Assembly (NCBI GenBank): GCA_021813525.1
Contig: JAKAKK010000038.1
Span: 1-33,005, forward strand
Source of the DNA: a bacterium
GTDB lineage: Bacteria; SZUA-79; Acidulodesulfobacterales; Acidulodesulfobacteraceae
Length of the DNA stretch: 33,005 nucleotides
Reading direction: 5' to 3'
Every line of letters starts with the position of its first letter. Positions within the stretch are counted from its first letter, which is position 1. Below, one piece after another: positions 10,290 through 17,153 of the stretch. The position numbers were made by a program, and so were the translations under genes. The notes beneath the pieces are model-generated. The model was not told the origin of the DNA, did no database searches, and worked only from the letters and a program-made list of their open reading frames with translations.

Positions 10290-11387
10290 ATGAATTTAAA
10301 TGCAAGAAAAGCAGTAATTTACCGTATTGCCCTGTTTTTATTTTTTATTTCGATTTTATCGGCTGCCGCAGGGGCGAATGCATTTACCACTATAACTATT
10401 CTCCCCGGAAAACTTAATAATTTCAGAATAAACGTTCCCGGTACGGTGTCGGCAGGCAGCAAATTTACGGTTAAATTAGTGGCTTTAGACGATTACGGGA
10501 ATGTTATCACCGATTTTGCAAATAAATACGAAGGGCTAAATATAGGCGTAAGCATCGGAAATAATAACTCTTCGGAACAGCTGGATATTCCCGCATCGGA
10601 ATTTAAAAACGGAGCGGTTAATTTTGATTTATCGTATAAAAAGGCCGGAAATATTTCCGTTTCCGCTTCATTTGAAGGCGTTCAAAATATCAGTTCTTCT
10701 ATATACGTCGCGGCCGGTCCCTTCCATAATCTAGAAATATCGGCTCCCTTAAAGGCAACGGCCGGCGAACCTTTCGGAGTTAAAGTTTATGCGGTTGACC
10801 AGTACGGCAATCCGATACGTTTTATGCCTAAACCTAACGGGGATATAAAAGTTTATCTTACCGGAGATAATTTTAAAGTTCGTCCGAGAATTATACCGGC
10901 GAATTATATTAAAAACGGTTCGGGCAAATTCAGTTTTATTTCCGACAGGGCCGGTTCGAGCCGGCTTAATTTTGAAGTGGATTATGACGGAAGAACCCAT
11001 GTTTTTATCAGTAAAAATATCGATATTTATCCTTCTTATTTCAATAAATTTCTTATATCCACGAATATTGCAAAAGTTCCGGCAGGAAAACCTTTTATAA
11101 TCAAAATTGTTTCCGTAGATAAGTACGGAAATGTGATAAGCGACATAAATAAAATGAAAGGGAAAGTTAAATTGGTTTTAATTTCCGAAAACGGTATAGA
11201 AAGAAGCAGCCTGTTCAGTTTTAAATCATTCAATAAAGGCATAGCTTTAGTAAAAACCGTATTTAACAGAGTCGGTACATTTTCTATTTATGCGAAGCCC
11301 GAAGGAATAAATTTCAAAAAACTTAAAGCGCTCTTGCCTAAAGTCAACCGGAAAATAAGAGCTAAGAGCCTTCTGCTGTATAAATAA
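10290..11387 (+). CDS. Secreted protein with three Ig-like repeats
   Basis: A 365-residue protein with an N-terminal signal peptide (hydrophobic about 10-30). Three homologous domains of roughly 100 residues follow (about 40-141, 143-247, 249-337). Each begins with a strand like FRINVPGTVSAG, LEISAPLKATAG or FLISTNIAKVPAG, and each carries a YGN turn (69-71, 172-174, 279-281) after a VxxVDxYGN strand. This pattern fits bacterial Ig-like/invasin-type folds used in surface or periplasmic proteins. The third domain is shorter and the tail is basic. A good ribosome site (GAGGGA, 10276-10281) supports the ATG. No anchor, sorting signal or enzyme motif is visible; the partner or ligand is unknown. 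Confidence 0.78.
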   Translation: MNLNARKAVIYRIALFLFFISILSAAAGANAFTTITILPGKLNNFRINVPGTVSAGSKFTVKLVALDDYGNVITDFANKYEGLNIGVSIGNNNSSEQLDIPASEFKNGAVNFDLSYKKAGNISVSASFEGVQNISSSIYVAAGPFHNLEISAPLKATAGEPFGVKVYAVDQYGNPIRFMPKPNGDIKVYLTGDNFKVRPRIIPANYIKNGSGKFSFISDRAGSSRLNFEVDYDGRTHVFISKNIDIYPSYFNKFLISTNIAKVPAGKPFIIKIVSVDKYGNVISDINKMKGKVKLVLISENGIERSSLFSFKSFNKGIALVKTVFNRVGTFSIYAKPEGINFKKLKALLPKVNRKIRAKSLLLYK

Positions 11388-14024: not shown

Positions 14025-14112
14025 GCCGGGGTGGCGGAAGTGGTAGACGCAAGGGACTTAAAATCCCTCGGAACTAAGTTCCGTGCCGGTTCGATTCCGG
14101 CCCTCGGCACCA
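14025..14112 (+). tRNA. tRNA-Leu (anticodon UAA)
   Basis: An 88-nt class II tRNA: acceptor stem GCCGGGG with CCCTCGGC (one G-U pair), D arm with GTGGTAGACGC, and anticodon stem AGGGA/TCCCT. The loop CTTAAAA gives anticodon TAA (reads UUA). The long variable arm CGGAACTAAGTTCCG is typical of tRNA-Leu, and the T arm carries GGTTCGATTCC. The discriminator is A, and CCA is encoded. Codons TTA are abundant in this AT-rich window, so this is a heavily used tRNA. Confidence 0.96.
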
Positions 14113-14292: not shown

Positions 14293-15279
14293 ATGCGTTC
14301 ATTTCGTTTGCTTAGAATGCTGGCGCTAAGCTTGGCATTGGTATTTGTTTTAACCGCTTCTATGTCCGAAGCTTCTTTCGCTCTTGGTATTAAAGGCGTA
14401 TACCCGCCATGGTGCAAAAACGGAGACCCGTCGGTAAATCAAGGGTATCATTTCAGTCCTATGACGGTCGATAACAACCCGGATTTTCACGGAAACGTTA
14501 CTGCCGTTACTTTGCATCCCAAGTCAAGTTTAGTGATATTTATCGGAGGCAATATATTTTTCGTACTGCCCCATGTCGTGAAAGCATTTATGAAAAAATA
14601 TCCTAACGTTAAGCATGTATTTTATATAACGATTCCTCCGGGCATGCTGGTAAGAGTCTGGAAGCACAATAACACCGTTACCCTCGGAAATCTGACTATG
14701 CATTTTTCGCCGGATATCTATATGGCCGGCGCAAAAAAACTTCATTTTACCAATAGAATAGGTATGACGACCGGAAAGATAGTCACCTACGGAAAAAACG
14801 ACCTTGCTATTATGACGTATAAAGGAAATCCGTATCATATTACCGGATTAAAAAGCCTCGGCAATCCTAAATTGAAACTGTCTATGCCTAACCCGGCGTT
14901 TGAAGGCATAGCCCATCAAATTAAGGCTTCGCTTGTTAAAGCGGGCGGGAAAAAATTGGAACAGTCCGTCTATAACTATGGAGTAAAGTCGGGCAGAGTT
15001 TATTTGACTCATATACATCATCGCCAAACCCCTATGAGGATTATGCAGAAGAAATCGGATGCCGGCGTAACATGGCAATCTGAGGCTAAATTTCAAGAAA
15101 TGATAGGAAATCCTATTACCGAAATCAATATTCCCGCTAAAGAAAATACGGTTGCTTTATACGGCGGCGCTATGGTTAAAGGCGCTCCCAATACTAAAGC
15201 CGCCCAGGAATGGCTGAATTTCTTGAAAAGCAAAGAATGTTTAAAAATATTCGAGCGTTTCGGATTCACCGCTCCTTAA
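14293..15279 (+). CDS. Extracellular solute-binding protein (molybdate/sulfate-type), next to DoxDA
   Basis: A 328-residue exported binding protein with a signal peptide (RR-containing start, hydrophobic about 9-22, cleavage near 28-31). The mature protein has the two-lobe pattern of SBP_bac_11/ModA-type proteins: SLVIFIGGNIFFVLPHVVKAF (ligand-lobe start), DLAIMTYKGNP, a GRVYLTHIHHRQTPMR stretch, SDAGVTW, and a closing WLNFLKSKECLKIFERFGF. No permease or ATPase gene is nearby, so it may not serve an ABC importer. Its place at the head of the DoxDA module suggests it binds a sulfur oxyanion or metal oxyanion (inference). A strong GGAGG, own promoter and a downstream hairpin suggest high expression. 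ModA annotation would be the usual automated result. Confidence 0.8.
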   Translation: MRSFRLLRMLALSLALVFVLTASMSEASFALGIKGVYPPWCKNGDPSVNQGYHFSPMTVDNNPDFHGNVTAVTLHPKSSLVIFIGGNIFFVLPHVVKAFMKKYPNVKHVFYITIPPGMLVRVWKHNNTVTLGNLTMHFSPDIYMAGAKKLHFTNRIGMTTGKIVTYGKNDLAIMTYKGNPYHITGLKSLGNPKLKLSMPNPAFEGIAHQIKASLVKAGGKKLEQSVYNYGVKSGRVYLTHIHHRQTPMRIMQKKSDAGVTWQSEAKFQEMIGNPITEINIPAKENTVALYGGAMVKGAPNTKAAQEWLNFLKSKECLKIFERFGFTAP

Positions 15280-15303
15280 TTATAAATAAATTTATAATAA
15301 CAG

Positions 15304-15346
15304 GCGTCGGGCAATACACTAAAATGCATTTGCCCGGCGCTTTAAT
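15304..15346 (+). terminator. Rho-independent terminator or attenuator inside the sulfur module
   Basis: An 11-bp GC-rich stem (15304-15314 with 15330-15340, one G-U pair), 15-nt loop, then a T-rich tail TTTAATTT. It sits between the binding-protein gene and doxDA, so it could end most transcripts after the first gene and lower doxDA relative to the binding protein. Confidence 0.75.
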
Positions 15347-15364
15347 TTAATAATAATTTATTAT

Positions 15365-15379
15365 TATAATAGGGGGGGG
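15365..15379 (+). promoter_or_regulatory. TATAAT box and G8 ribosome site before doxDA
   Basis: TATAAT (15365-15370) is followed at once by AGGGGGGGGT, containing eight G residues (15372-15379), 8 nt before the doxDA ATG. The G run serves as the ribosome site. If TATAAT is a real -10 box, the transcript would begin in the G run with a very short leader; the -35 region (15342-15347, TTAATT) is weak. Confidence 0.4.
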
Positions 15380-15387
15380 TAATATAT

Positions 15388-16440
15388 ATGTCTAAAAATC
15401 CAAATGAAATCGAAGACAGTTCAATATACCGCTATCTTGGTTATGCGGCTATCCCGTTAAGATTAGTTTTGGGCTGGATGTTCTTTTCGGCCGCATGGAG
15501 GAGGGTAGTTCTTGCAAGCGGAAAGCTTCAGCCGAATTCGCCTTTATGGGTAGGCCACAAGTTTAATACATTCCTGCCTCATGCGAGCAATTTCATGGGC
15601 GTAGGAAGTTTAATCCATCTTTTAATCCTGCATCCGCAGGCATTGGCAGTATTCCTCAACGTGTTTACCGTAATAGAATTCCTCGTCGGATTATCTTTAA
15701 TATTCGGCCTTTTTTCAAGGCTCGGCGGATTAGGGGCGGTTGCACTCGCTTTCGGAATTTTATTCGGCTCAGGTTGGCTCGGTGCTACCTGCCTCGACGA
15801 GTGGCAGGTCGGCTCGGTAGAAATGACTATCGGCTTGTTAATACTATTTGCCGGCAGTACCTGGTCTTTCGACGATATAGTAAGAAATATGTGGCCGAAA
15901 ACCGCGAACTCATTTATCTATAGATTAATAGGAAACGGTCCGCTATGGGGAAAGGGATTTAAAACATGGAATGCGGTATTTGCTATATTTGCTATACTGG
16001 TCACTATGGGCACCAACCAGCTCTTTCAGGGCGGAGTTTGGGGAAATCTTCATAATTTCGGGAAGAAATTGGCAGTGTCGGTTTCTGACGCTAAAATTGC
16101 AAACGGCAATCTGAATTTTGTAGTTTATAGAACAGGCGGCAGCGGAGCCGCTTTTGCTTATATTATAAAAGCTCAGATTAACGACTCTGCTGGAAAGCCC
16201 GTTTATATATGGAATCAAAAAGCTATCGAAAAATTGCCTATGACGGTCATACATAACAGATATATCAACAGGACTTTCATAAATAAATACAGTATGGTAA
16301 TGCAGCTTGGAGCTAAGGCGGATATCAGTCTGCCTATTAATAAAAAAACTGCTGAATCTTTAAAGCCCGGAAATTATAAACTTATACTTACCGACGTAAG
16401 CGGGCAAGAGTTTACCGAAAATTTTAGTTATAAAAGATAA
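15388..16440 (+). CDS. doxDA: Thiosulfate:quinone oxidoreductase, fused DoxD-DoxA
   Basis: A 350-residue fusion of the two subunits of thiosulfate:quinone oxidoreductase, which oxidises thiosulfate to tetrathionate and reduces membrane quinone. Residues about 14-185 are the DoxD domain, with four hydrophobic segments (about 18-35, 85-108, 112-130, 143-157) and the conserved LPHASNF and GATCLDEWQ segments. A fifth membrane segment (about 192-210) leads into the DoxA domain (about 215-350), a beta-rich outer domain with KPVYIWNQKAIEKLPMTV. The two are separate genes in archaea such as Acidianus; the fused form occurs in acidophilic sulfur bacteria. The neighbours (binding protein, DsrE-like protein) support a sulfur role. 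Confidence 0.88.
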   Translation: MSKNPNEIEDSSIYRYLGYAAIPLRLVLGWMFFSAAWRRVVLASGKLQPNSPLWVGHKFNTFLPHASNFMGVGSLIHLLILHPQALAVFLNVFTVIEFLVGLSLIFGLFSRLGGLGAVALAFGILFGSGWLGATCLDEWQVGSVEMTIGLLILFAGSTWSFDDIVRNMWPKTANSFIYRLIGNGPLWGKGFKTWNAVFAIFAILVTMGTNQLFQGGVWGNLHNFGKKLAVSVSDAKIANGNLNFVVYRTGGSGAAFAYIIKAQINDSAGKPVYIWNQKAIEKLPMTVIHNRYINRTFINKYSMVMQLGAKADISLPINKKTAESLKPGNYKLILTDVSGQEFTENFSYKR

Positions 16441-16500
16441 CTCTAAAGTTTTAAGTTTAATATATAAAATCTAATTTAAATTTAAAAGGAGAAAAGAGAA

Positions 16501-17073
16501 ATGAAAAACAAAAGTATTAAAACGCTTTTAAGCATTTCTGTTTTAGTGTTTTCGGCGATAGTATTTTCGTTAGCTTCTAATGCATTTGCAGGATGGAGAG
16601 GGGTTGCGCCCGTTGCGCATCCGGCAGGATGGTACGGTTGGCACAATGTTAAAGGCGTCAGAAAATATTATCCAAATTTATCGATTGAGCCGAAATATAC
16701 CATGGGCGCGCCTTATGTTCCCGGAAAAATTTATCATGCAATTTACGTAATAAGCGCAAACAATAAAATTAAAATGAATAAAATTATCGACAATATTCAT
16801 AACGCATTAAACGACCCGAGGCTTAAAGGGCATATAAAAATAGAACTTCAGGCATTCAGCGCCGGAACGCATCTTTATTTTAAAGGTAACGGTCGCGAAA
16901 AAGCTTTATTGCAGCTTAAAAAGTTGGGAGTTGAGCTTGTTCAGTGCGCAAACAGTCTGTATGAACTGCATATTCCCGTTTCGAAGCTGTATCCCTTTAT
17001 AAAAATAGTTCCGTCCGCGCAGGGAGAGATTATCTTAAGGGAATCCGAAGGATATGCTTATTTAAAACCCTGA
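16501..17073 (+). CDS. Exported DsrE-like sulfur-carrier protein
   Basis: A 190-residue protein with a clear signal peptide (cleavage after AFA, about residue 30). After an aromatic-rich linker, residues about 76-190 match the DsrE/DsrF-like fold: KIYHAIYVISANNKI, KIELQAFSAGTHLYF, LKKLGVELVQCANSL with C149 at the position of the conserved sulfur-carrying cysteine, VPSAQGEI, and the typical ending GYAYLKP. Cytoplasmic DsrE proteins pass persulfide sulfur between TusA, DsrC and related proteins; here the signal peptide places it outside the membrane. It lies 60 nt after doxDA, with AAGGAG at 16486-16491, and ends at a strong terminator. A thiosulfate or persulfide relay with DoxDA is inferred, not shown. 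Confidence 0.8.
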   Translation: MKNKSIKTLLSISVLVFSAIVFSLASNAFAGWRGVAPVAHPAGWYGWHNVKGVRKYYPNLSIEPKYTMGAPYVPGKIYHAIYVISANNKIKMNKIIDNIHNALNDPRLKGHIKIELQAFSAGTHLYFKGNGREKALLQLKKLGVELVQCANSLYELHIPVSKLYPFIKIVPSAQGEIILRESEGYAYLKP

Positions 17074-17114
17074 TTGTTCCGTTTAAATCAGAAAAACGGT
17101 TTGCCGATATATTA

Positions 17115-17153
17115 AAACCCGTAATTTAAAATATTTTAAATTACGGGTTTTTT
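17115..17153 (+). terminator. Rho-independent terminator of the sulfur module
   Basis: A long perfect stem (17117-17131 pairs with 17134-17148) includes ACCCG/CGGGT at its base and runs straight into a T tract (17148-17153). It lies 41 nt after the DsrE-like gene and before pheS, marking the end of the module. Because the stem is symmetric with an A run on its 5' side, it could also terminate on the opposite strand. Confidence 0.85.

Follow-up and report, generated by a model that had tools for sequence, protein, structure and literature searches.

A conserved unit of solute-binding protein, DoxDA and exported DsrE-fold protein genes in Candidatus Acidulodesulfobacterales, variant of a cluster known from Acidithiobacillus ferrooxidans

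The 33,005-nt stretch of DNA analysed here (the window, to which all positions refer) corresponds to contig C19 in a draft genome (G000) of 1.45 Mb and 86% completeness, from Candidatus Acidulodesulfobacterales (Sva0485), a lineage of acid mine drainage. It hosts three adjacent genes encoding, in the order, an exported orphan solute-binding protein (SBP), a fused DoxD-DoxA protein (DoxDA) and an exported DsrE-fold protein. The unit represents a variant of the gene arrangement known in Acidithiobacillus ferrooxidans since 2008, and probably works as a periplasmic thiosulfate-oxidising module; the single chemical steps are proposed with less confidence. The SBP, which has no ATP-binding cassette (ABC) transporter of its own, would capture periplasmic thiosulfate or a related sulfur oxyanion, and offer it to its two partner proteins. 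The DsrE-fold protein would fill the place of the thiosulfate dehydrogenase (TSD) exported by the twin-arginine (Tat) pathway in A. ferrooxidans and Acetobacteraceae. It would take the sulfane sulfur on residue C149, as a cysteine-bound thiosulfonate or persulfide, a role suggested by its fold, its single cysteine and its kinship to TSD. DoxDA, in the inner membrane, would transfer the electrons to quinone, yielding tetrathionate; both quinone reduction and this product are established for relatives of DoxDA, the thiosulfate:quinone oxidoreductases (TQOs). The features identified are the following:

14025..14112, forward strand: tRNA-Leu (taa), detected by ARAGORN; left neighbour, outside the module
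14293..15279, forward strand: exported orphan SBP, 328 aa; PF13531, SBP family of the Acetobacteraceae TSD-SBP-DoxDA clusters
15302..15342, forward strand: stem-loop in the gap between SBP and DoxDA genes, 13 bp stem; fold z and covariation
15388..16440, forward strand: DoxDA, DoxD and DoxA fused, 350 aa; Pfam matches and invariant residues
16501..17073, forward strand: exported DsrE-fold protein, 190 aa, single cysteine C149; matches to DsrE-fold proteins
17114..17151 (about), forward strand: intrinsic terminator hairpin, end of the unit; fold z -6.5, U run at the 3' side

The three open reading frames (ORFs) lie exactly at the coordinates given by a first-pass annotation, which had proposed a three-gene module bounded by tRNA-Leu at the left and a strong terminator at the right, and both borders are real. 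The proposal had been staked beforehand on conservation of the trio in related genomes. DoxDA is present in 13 of the 30 genomes of the family that have been searched, and the same 13 all encode SBP and trio-type DsrE (at least 77% identity), adjacent and in the same order. The trio as a unit is absent from the family genomes without DoxDA. Among the relatives of the window genome is Candidatus Acididesulfobacter diazotrophicus AP1 (locus L064), and the 13 genomes, being related to each other, do not represent 13 independent events. The loci are mostly flanked by the same genes, an oxidoreductase upstream and pheS downstream. In G005 the trio is intact but is found at a wholly different locus (L063, L111), which argues for a functional unit rather than mere shared synteny, and makes tRNA-Leu a mere neighbour. 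Linkage by general synteny alone is ruled out by the G005 locus, and by the differing gene order observed in other families.

Outside the family, linkage has been monitored for full-length SBP family members scoring >300 bits, in a few dozen related, not independent, genomes of Bacteroidota, alpha-, beta- and probably gammaproteobacteria. Proteins at 70-250 bits (L177-L192), which fall into adjacent SBP subfamilies and whose gene neighbours are mixed, were left out of the counts. Either a TSD or an exported DsrE gene lies directly beside SBP at all 16 chromosomal loci and in all 22 plasmid records. DoxDA accompanies SBP at 10 of the 16 chromosomal loci; elsewhere, SBP is often found near c-type cytochromes and oxidases. 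SBP and DsrE co-occur with DoxDA also beyond the family, as independent DsrE-SBP-DoxDA operons are found in two further families (G425 and G617-G619; G503; loci L175/G425, L176/G503 and L220-L222). TSD-SBP-DoxDA clusters have been identified in G174 and its family (L099, L227, L229-L231), and Gluconobacter and Acetobacter clusters featuring TSD, SBP and DoxDA in a row were recovered on plasmids. As a whole, genomic linkage suggests that SBP has its closest partner in the DsrE-fold protein, and not in DoxDA. The extracytoplasmic thiosulfate capture and sulfur relay around DoxDA originally envisaged finds good support in the conserved linkage and the independent operons, and has to be amended in that SBP is more closely tied to DsrE than to DoxDA and the system is not a novel one. 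A plasmid of Paraburkholderia fungorum (L202, 1-7457) carries genes for a metallo-beta-lactamase-fold hydrolase, TauE, DsbC, DsrE, TlpA, a second small SBP, TSD, SBP and two cytochromes c, apparently a complete plasmid-borne thiosulfate module.

The notion that no system with such a trio had been described is overturned by the literature. In A. ferrooxidans, doxDA lies in two divergent clusters together with genes for a protein with a Tat signal and a periplasmic solute-binding protein; a rhodanese gene is part of one of the two, and a similar organisation was noted in Gluconobacter oxydans (PMC2621215, Valdes et al. 2008). SBP and doxDA of A. ferrooxidans are raised on sulfur (PMC2754497, Quatrini et al. 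2009). The Tat-signal protein AFE_0042 is a thiosulfate dehydrogenase with a pH optimum of 2.5. It does not reduce ubiquinone or horse cytochrome c (PMC6335251, a 2019 review), and must therefore have another electron outlet. In early work, the purified thiosulfate dehydrogenase activity had no cofactor requirement and yielded tetrathionate (PMC6335251). No published report of an operon of exported DsrE, DoxDA and SBP turned up in a search that left subscription literature outside. The TSD profile had no match in the 30 family genomes, and did match in G174 and other genomes; no TSD was found in viral contigs.

The third gene of the trio scores 13.1 bits against Pfam DsrE, below the gathering cut-off of 22.7, which is passed by several sister exported DsrE paralogues. 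Among solved proteins it is nearest to MTH1491 (E 3.4e-7) and ST0148 (E 2.3e-6), with a profile E-value of 1.5e-25. A hydrophobic, signal-like segment ending in AxA spans residues 8-26, so the protein probably acts outside the cytoplasm; its description as a DsrE-fold protein with signal peptide is thus upheld. C149 is the only cysteine, and its position is invariant across 18 exported DsrE-like proteins. The trio DsrE forms a clade of its own (SH-aLRT 93).

The comparison of 8 TSD to 18 exported DsrE proteins by hhalign gave P 95.6 and E 1.2e-8, and aligned the invariant cysteine of TSD (RGVVFxxCHNxIW) with that of DsrE. The match persisted when signal regions were trimmed (P 96, score 59). 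As controls, 60 column shuffles reached a maximum score of 19 (P 1.6), and comparisons to SBP or DoxDA gave P <1. TSD matched single DsrE subgroups more weakly (P 16-24 for two of them), and the relationship hence hinges on the profile of all subgroups combined. The DsrE hidden Markov model is touched at 14-16 bits by three TSD proteins. The TSD profile had no match among solved structures, so that the fold assignment rests on the controlled profile-profile comparison. TSD and exported DsrE proteins would accordingly belong to one superfamily and play corresponding parts, and DsrE appears, from sequence comparison, to be the likely fold of the TSD of the A. ferrooxidans cluster. AFE_0042 is placed in the compared TSD family by synteny and the published note, not by its sequence; similarly, the SBP is tied to the A. 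ferrooxidans cluster via the Gluconobacter SBP and the published description (PMC2621215), not via the AFE_0042/0043 sequences. As a tentative extension, exported single-cysteine DsrE-fold proteins, A. ferrooxidans-type TSD included, may make up one class of cofactor-free periplasmic thiosulfate-handling enzymes, pairing with the SBP family and delivering electrons to interchangeable outlets, either DoxDA and thereby quinone, or c-type cytochromes. The window trio might be the minimal DoxDA form of such a system.

Exported DsrE-like genes are also found in the Sox context. The order is reported to have soxABYZ and no soxCD (PMC6776010), and from 1 to 4 exported DsrE-like genes lie beside soxB in many genomes of the family, most of them also beside soxA (G000:C89:2536-5254 (L106); L101, L102, L104, L113, L209, L211, L212). 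Homologues of the trio type (55-58% identity) are inside the sox operons of G008 and G019, both of which lack DoxDA. Sox-linked exported DsrE proteins are possibly a sulfur-unloading device for SoxY. Their location speaks for a general involvement of exported DsrE in the thiosulfate chemistry of the periplasm, and at the same time feeds a different explanation for the trio, namely that its DsrE is a sulfur carrier shared with Sox, unloading the SoxY sulfane sulfur or carrying it cellward, and lies next to DoxDA for co-regulation only. The absence of soxCD is in line with such a carrier; however, the trio DsrE falls in a separate clade and follows DoxDA in 13 of 13 genomes, and SBP-DsrE pairs occur also at plasmid and chromosomal loci where no sox genes were noted nearby. 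A carrier shared with Sox is rather unlikely on these grounds.

The SBP matches PF13531 (SBP_bac_11, E 2e-33), and its N-terminus, with a hydrophobic segment (residues 6-24) and an AxA motif, looks like a Sec signal on visual inspection. It is 46-48% identical to family members of Gluconobacter (46%), Acetobacter and Paraburkholderia. Among the closest proteins of known structure are SubI and Sbp, which bind sulfate, the molybdate protein ModA, and PEB3; phmmer matched PEB3 (E 7e-7), of the AcfC/PEB3-like orphan SBPs, and the family profile is nearer SubI. On account of this fold, the SBP could be envisaged as a receptor or scavenger for another oxyanion, such as sulfate, molybdate or a phosphate ester, served by a distant ABC transporter, its linkage to DoxDA being a historical accident. 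The first-pass annotation had itself named a molybdate carrier with its transporter elsewhere as the alternative that would overthrow the proposal. This candidate was rejected. The score against the curated ModA model TIGR01256 is 25 bits, below the cut-off of 62.5, and the only strong ModB-like permease of G000 belongs to a complete modABC set with its own adjacent ModA and ATPase (G000:C60). The same pattern is seen in relatives more complete than the window genome, as G016, and strong ModB-type permeases are encoded by most of the 30 family genomes, irrespective of the trio. Since SBP tracks DoxDA within the family, and DsrE-fold genes at the chromosomal and plasmid loci counted above, a receptor for other oxyanions is also quite improbable, and the view of an exported binding protein with neither permease nor ATPase stands.

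DoxD (E 1.7e-41) and DoxA (E 2.2e-27) both pass Pfam cut-offs in one ORF, in agreement with the fusion formerly noted. C135 is the single cysteine of DoxDA and, along with R38, R39, D137, E138 and W139, is invariant in 9 diverse homologues. The scores against the NCBIfam TQO equivalogs for large and small subunits, 108 and 17 bits, are both below the cut-off of 300; the protein is of a bacterial fused branch. DoxDA homologues of about 40% identity occur without SBP in three genomes of 1.8-1.9 Mb outside the family (G141, G262 and G278; L096, L097 and L098). Divergent DoxDA-like genes are carried by Salmonella and Bacteroides plasmids; no SBP or DsrE homologue was found at L094, the sole locus examined. 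A module running in reverse, or serving detoxification or sensing, for example by quinol-driven tetrathionate reduction in dsrAB-bearing, partly anaerobic organisms, would agree with the occurrence of DoxDA without SBP in those three genomes and with the description of Ca. Acidulodesulfobacterales as probable sulfate reducers having dsrAB and dsrD (PMC6776010), but is very unlikely, given that the best-known homologous cluster is sulfur-induced and comes from an oxidiser, A. ferrooxidans (PMC2754497), and that cytochromes and oxidases flank SBP-DsrE pairs in other lineages.

Some observations weigh against thiosulfate oxidation by the trio as outlined above. DoxDA is not an obligatory component, as Paraburkholderia, Hymenobacter, Komagataeibacter and others have SBP-DsrE pairs with no DoxDA next to them. 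The SBP is no nearer to any protein of known ligand than to sulfate-binding and PEB3-type proteins, and AlphaFold models, obtained from shallow alignments, are unusable (pLDDT of 32 for SBP and 49 for DoxDA). Moreover, the DsrE subfamilies found beside SBP differ among clades, and TSD is absent from the family of the window, so that fold and position are the grounds for equating the window DsrE with TSD in function.

The gap between the first two genes contains a stem-loop missing from the first-pass annotation. The whole gap folds with z -3.4, and none of 200 shuffles was as stable. Pairing in the stem is preserved by matching changes in four close relatives, and 8 pairs show changes on both sides in the set of 5 relatives. 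In two more distant relatives (L063, L067) the same gap holds hairpins of unrelated sequence, whose stability is not clearly above that of shuffled sequence. As no clean T run follows it, the window stem-loop is read as a partial terminator or mRNA-end protector. It probably lowers read-through or protects the end of the SBP mRNA, which would give more SBP than DoxDA. Promoter-like sites number 17, against 11.8 +/- 3.5 in shuffled sequences; the excess is not clear, and the sites are left uninterpreted. The left flank of the trio, from the tRNA-Leu side to SBP, is variable, with extra unrelated genes in several relatives (L060, L064 and L069, compared to L059), and resembles an insertion hot spot. 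Further upstream, positions 10290-11387 encode an exported-looking protein with weak matches to immunoglobulin-like repeats, which is kept upstream of the trio across relatives.

Thiosulfate oxidation of the DoxDA type has a central place in both acid mine drainage and bioleaching, but what the associated binding protein and the thiosulfate dehydrogenase without cofactor do in it has so far gone unexplained. A DsrE-fold protein as constant partner, and a dehydrogenase family apparently of the same fold with an identifiable cysteine, make the mechanism directly testable. A DoxDA route is also added for the uncultivated Ca. Acidulodesulfobacterales, which goes unmentioned in the genome paper of the order, where the term doxD is absent (PMC6776010).

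Among known systems, the tsd-sbp-doxDA-rhd cluster of A. ferrooxidans (AFE_0041-0050) and the G. oxydans cluster resemble the trio in that an orphan exported SBP lies directly beside a fused DoxDA. The A. ferrooxidans-type cluster and the trio also share a further exported sulfur-handling protein within the unit, and a setting in acidophile sulfur metabolism. In contrast, the trio has neither a Tat-exported TSD nor an adjacent exported rhodanese, doxDA being followed at the window locus by the DsrE-like gene, the terminator and then pheS. Gene order differs as well, since the exported DsrE comes after DoxDA (SBP-DoxDA-DsrE), whereas the A. ferrooxidans type is TSD-SBP-DoxDA. The archaeal TQO of Acidianus ambivalens features the same functional pairing of DoxD and DoxA domains; these are fused in the window protein, which is well under the archaeal equivalog cut-offs, and the published enzyme is described as made up of just DoxA and DoxD, with neither SBP nor DsrE. 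The window DsrE shares with the DsrE/DsrF family the conserved cysteine and, judging from the similarity to MTH1491 and ST0148, the fold, but is divergent enough to fall under the Pfam cut-off, and is the product of a single gene with an export-type N-terminus, unlike the cytoplasmic DsrEFH three-gene complex. The Sox system of the order (soxYZ, soxB, soxA) is likewise devoted to periplasmic thiosulfate oxidation, and its operons include exported DsrE paralogues. These belong to other clades than the trio DsrE, except for the trio-type copy in G008 and G019, and the Sox operons, unlike the trio, feature neither DoxDA nor an SBP of the trio family.

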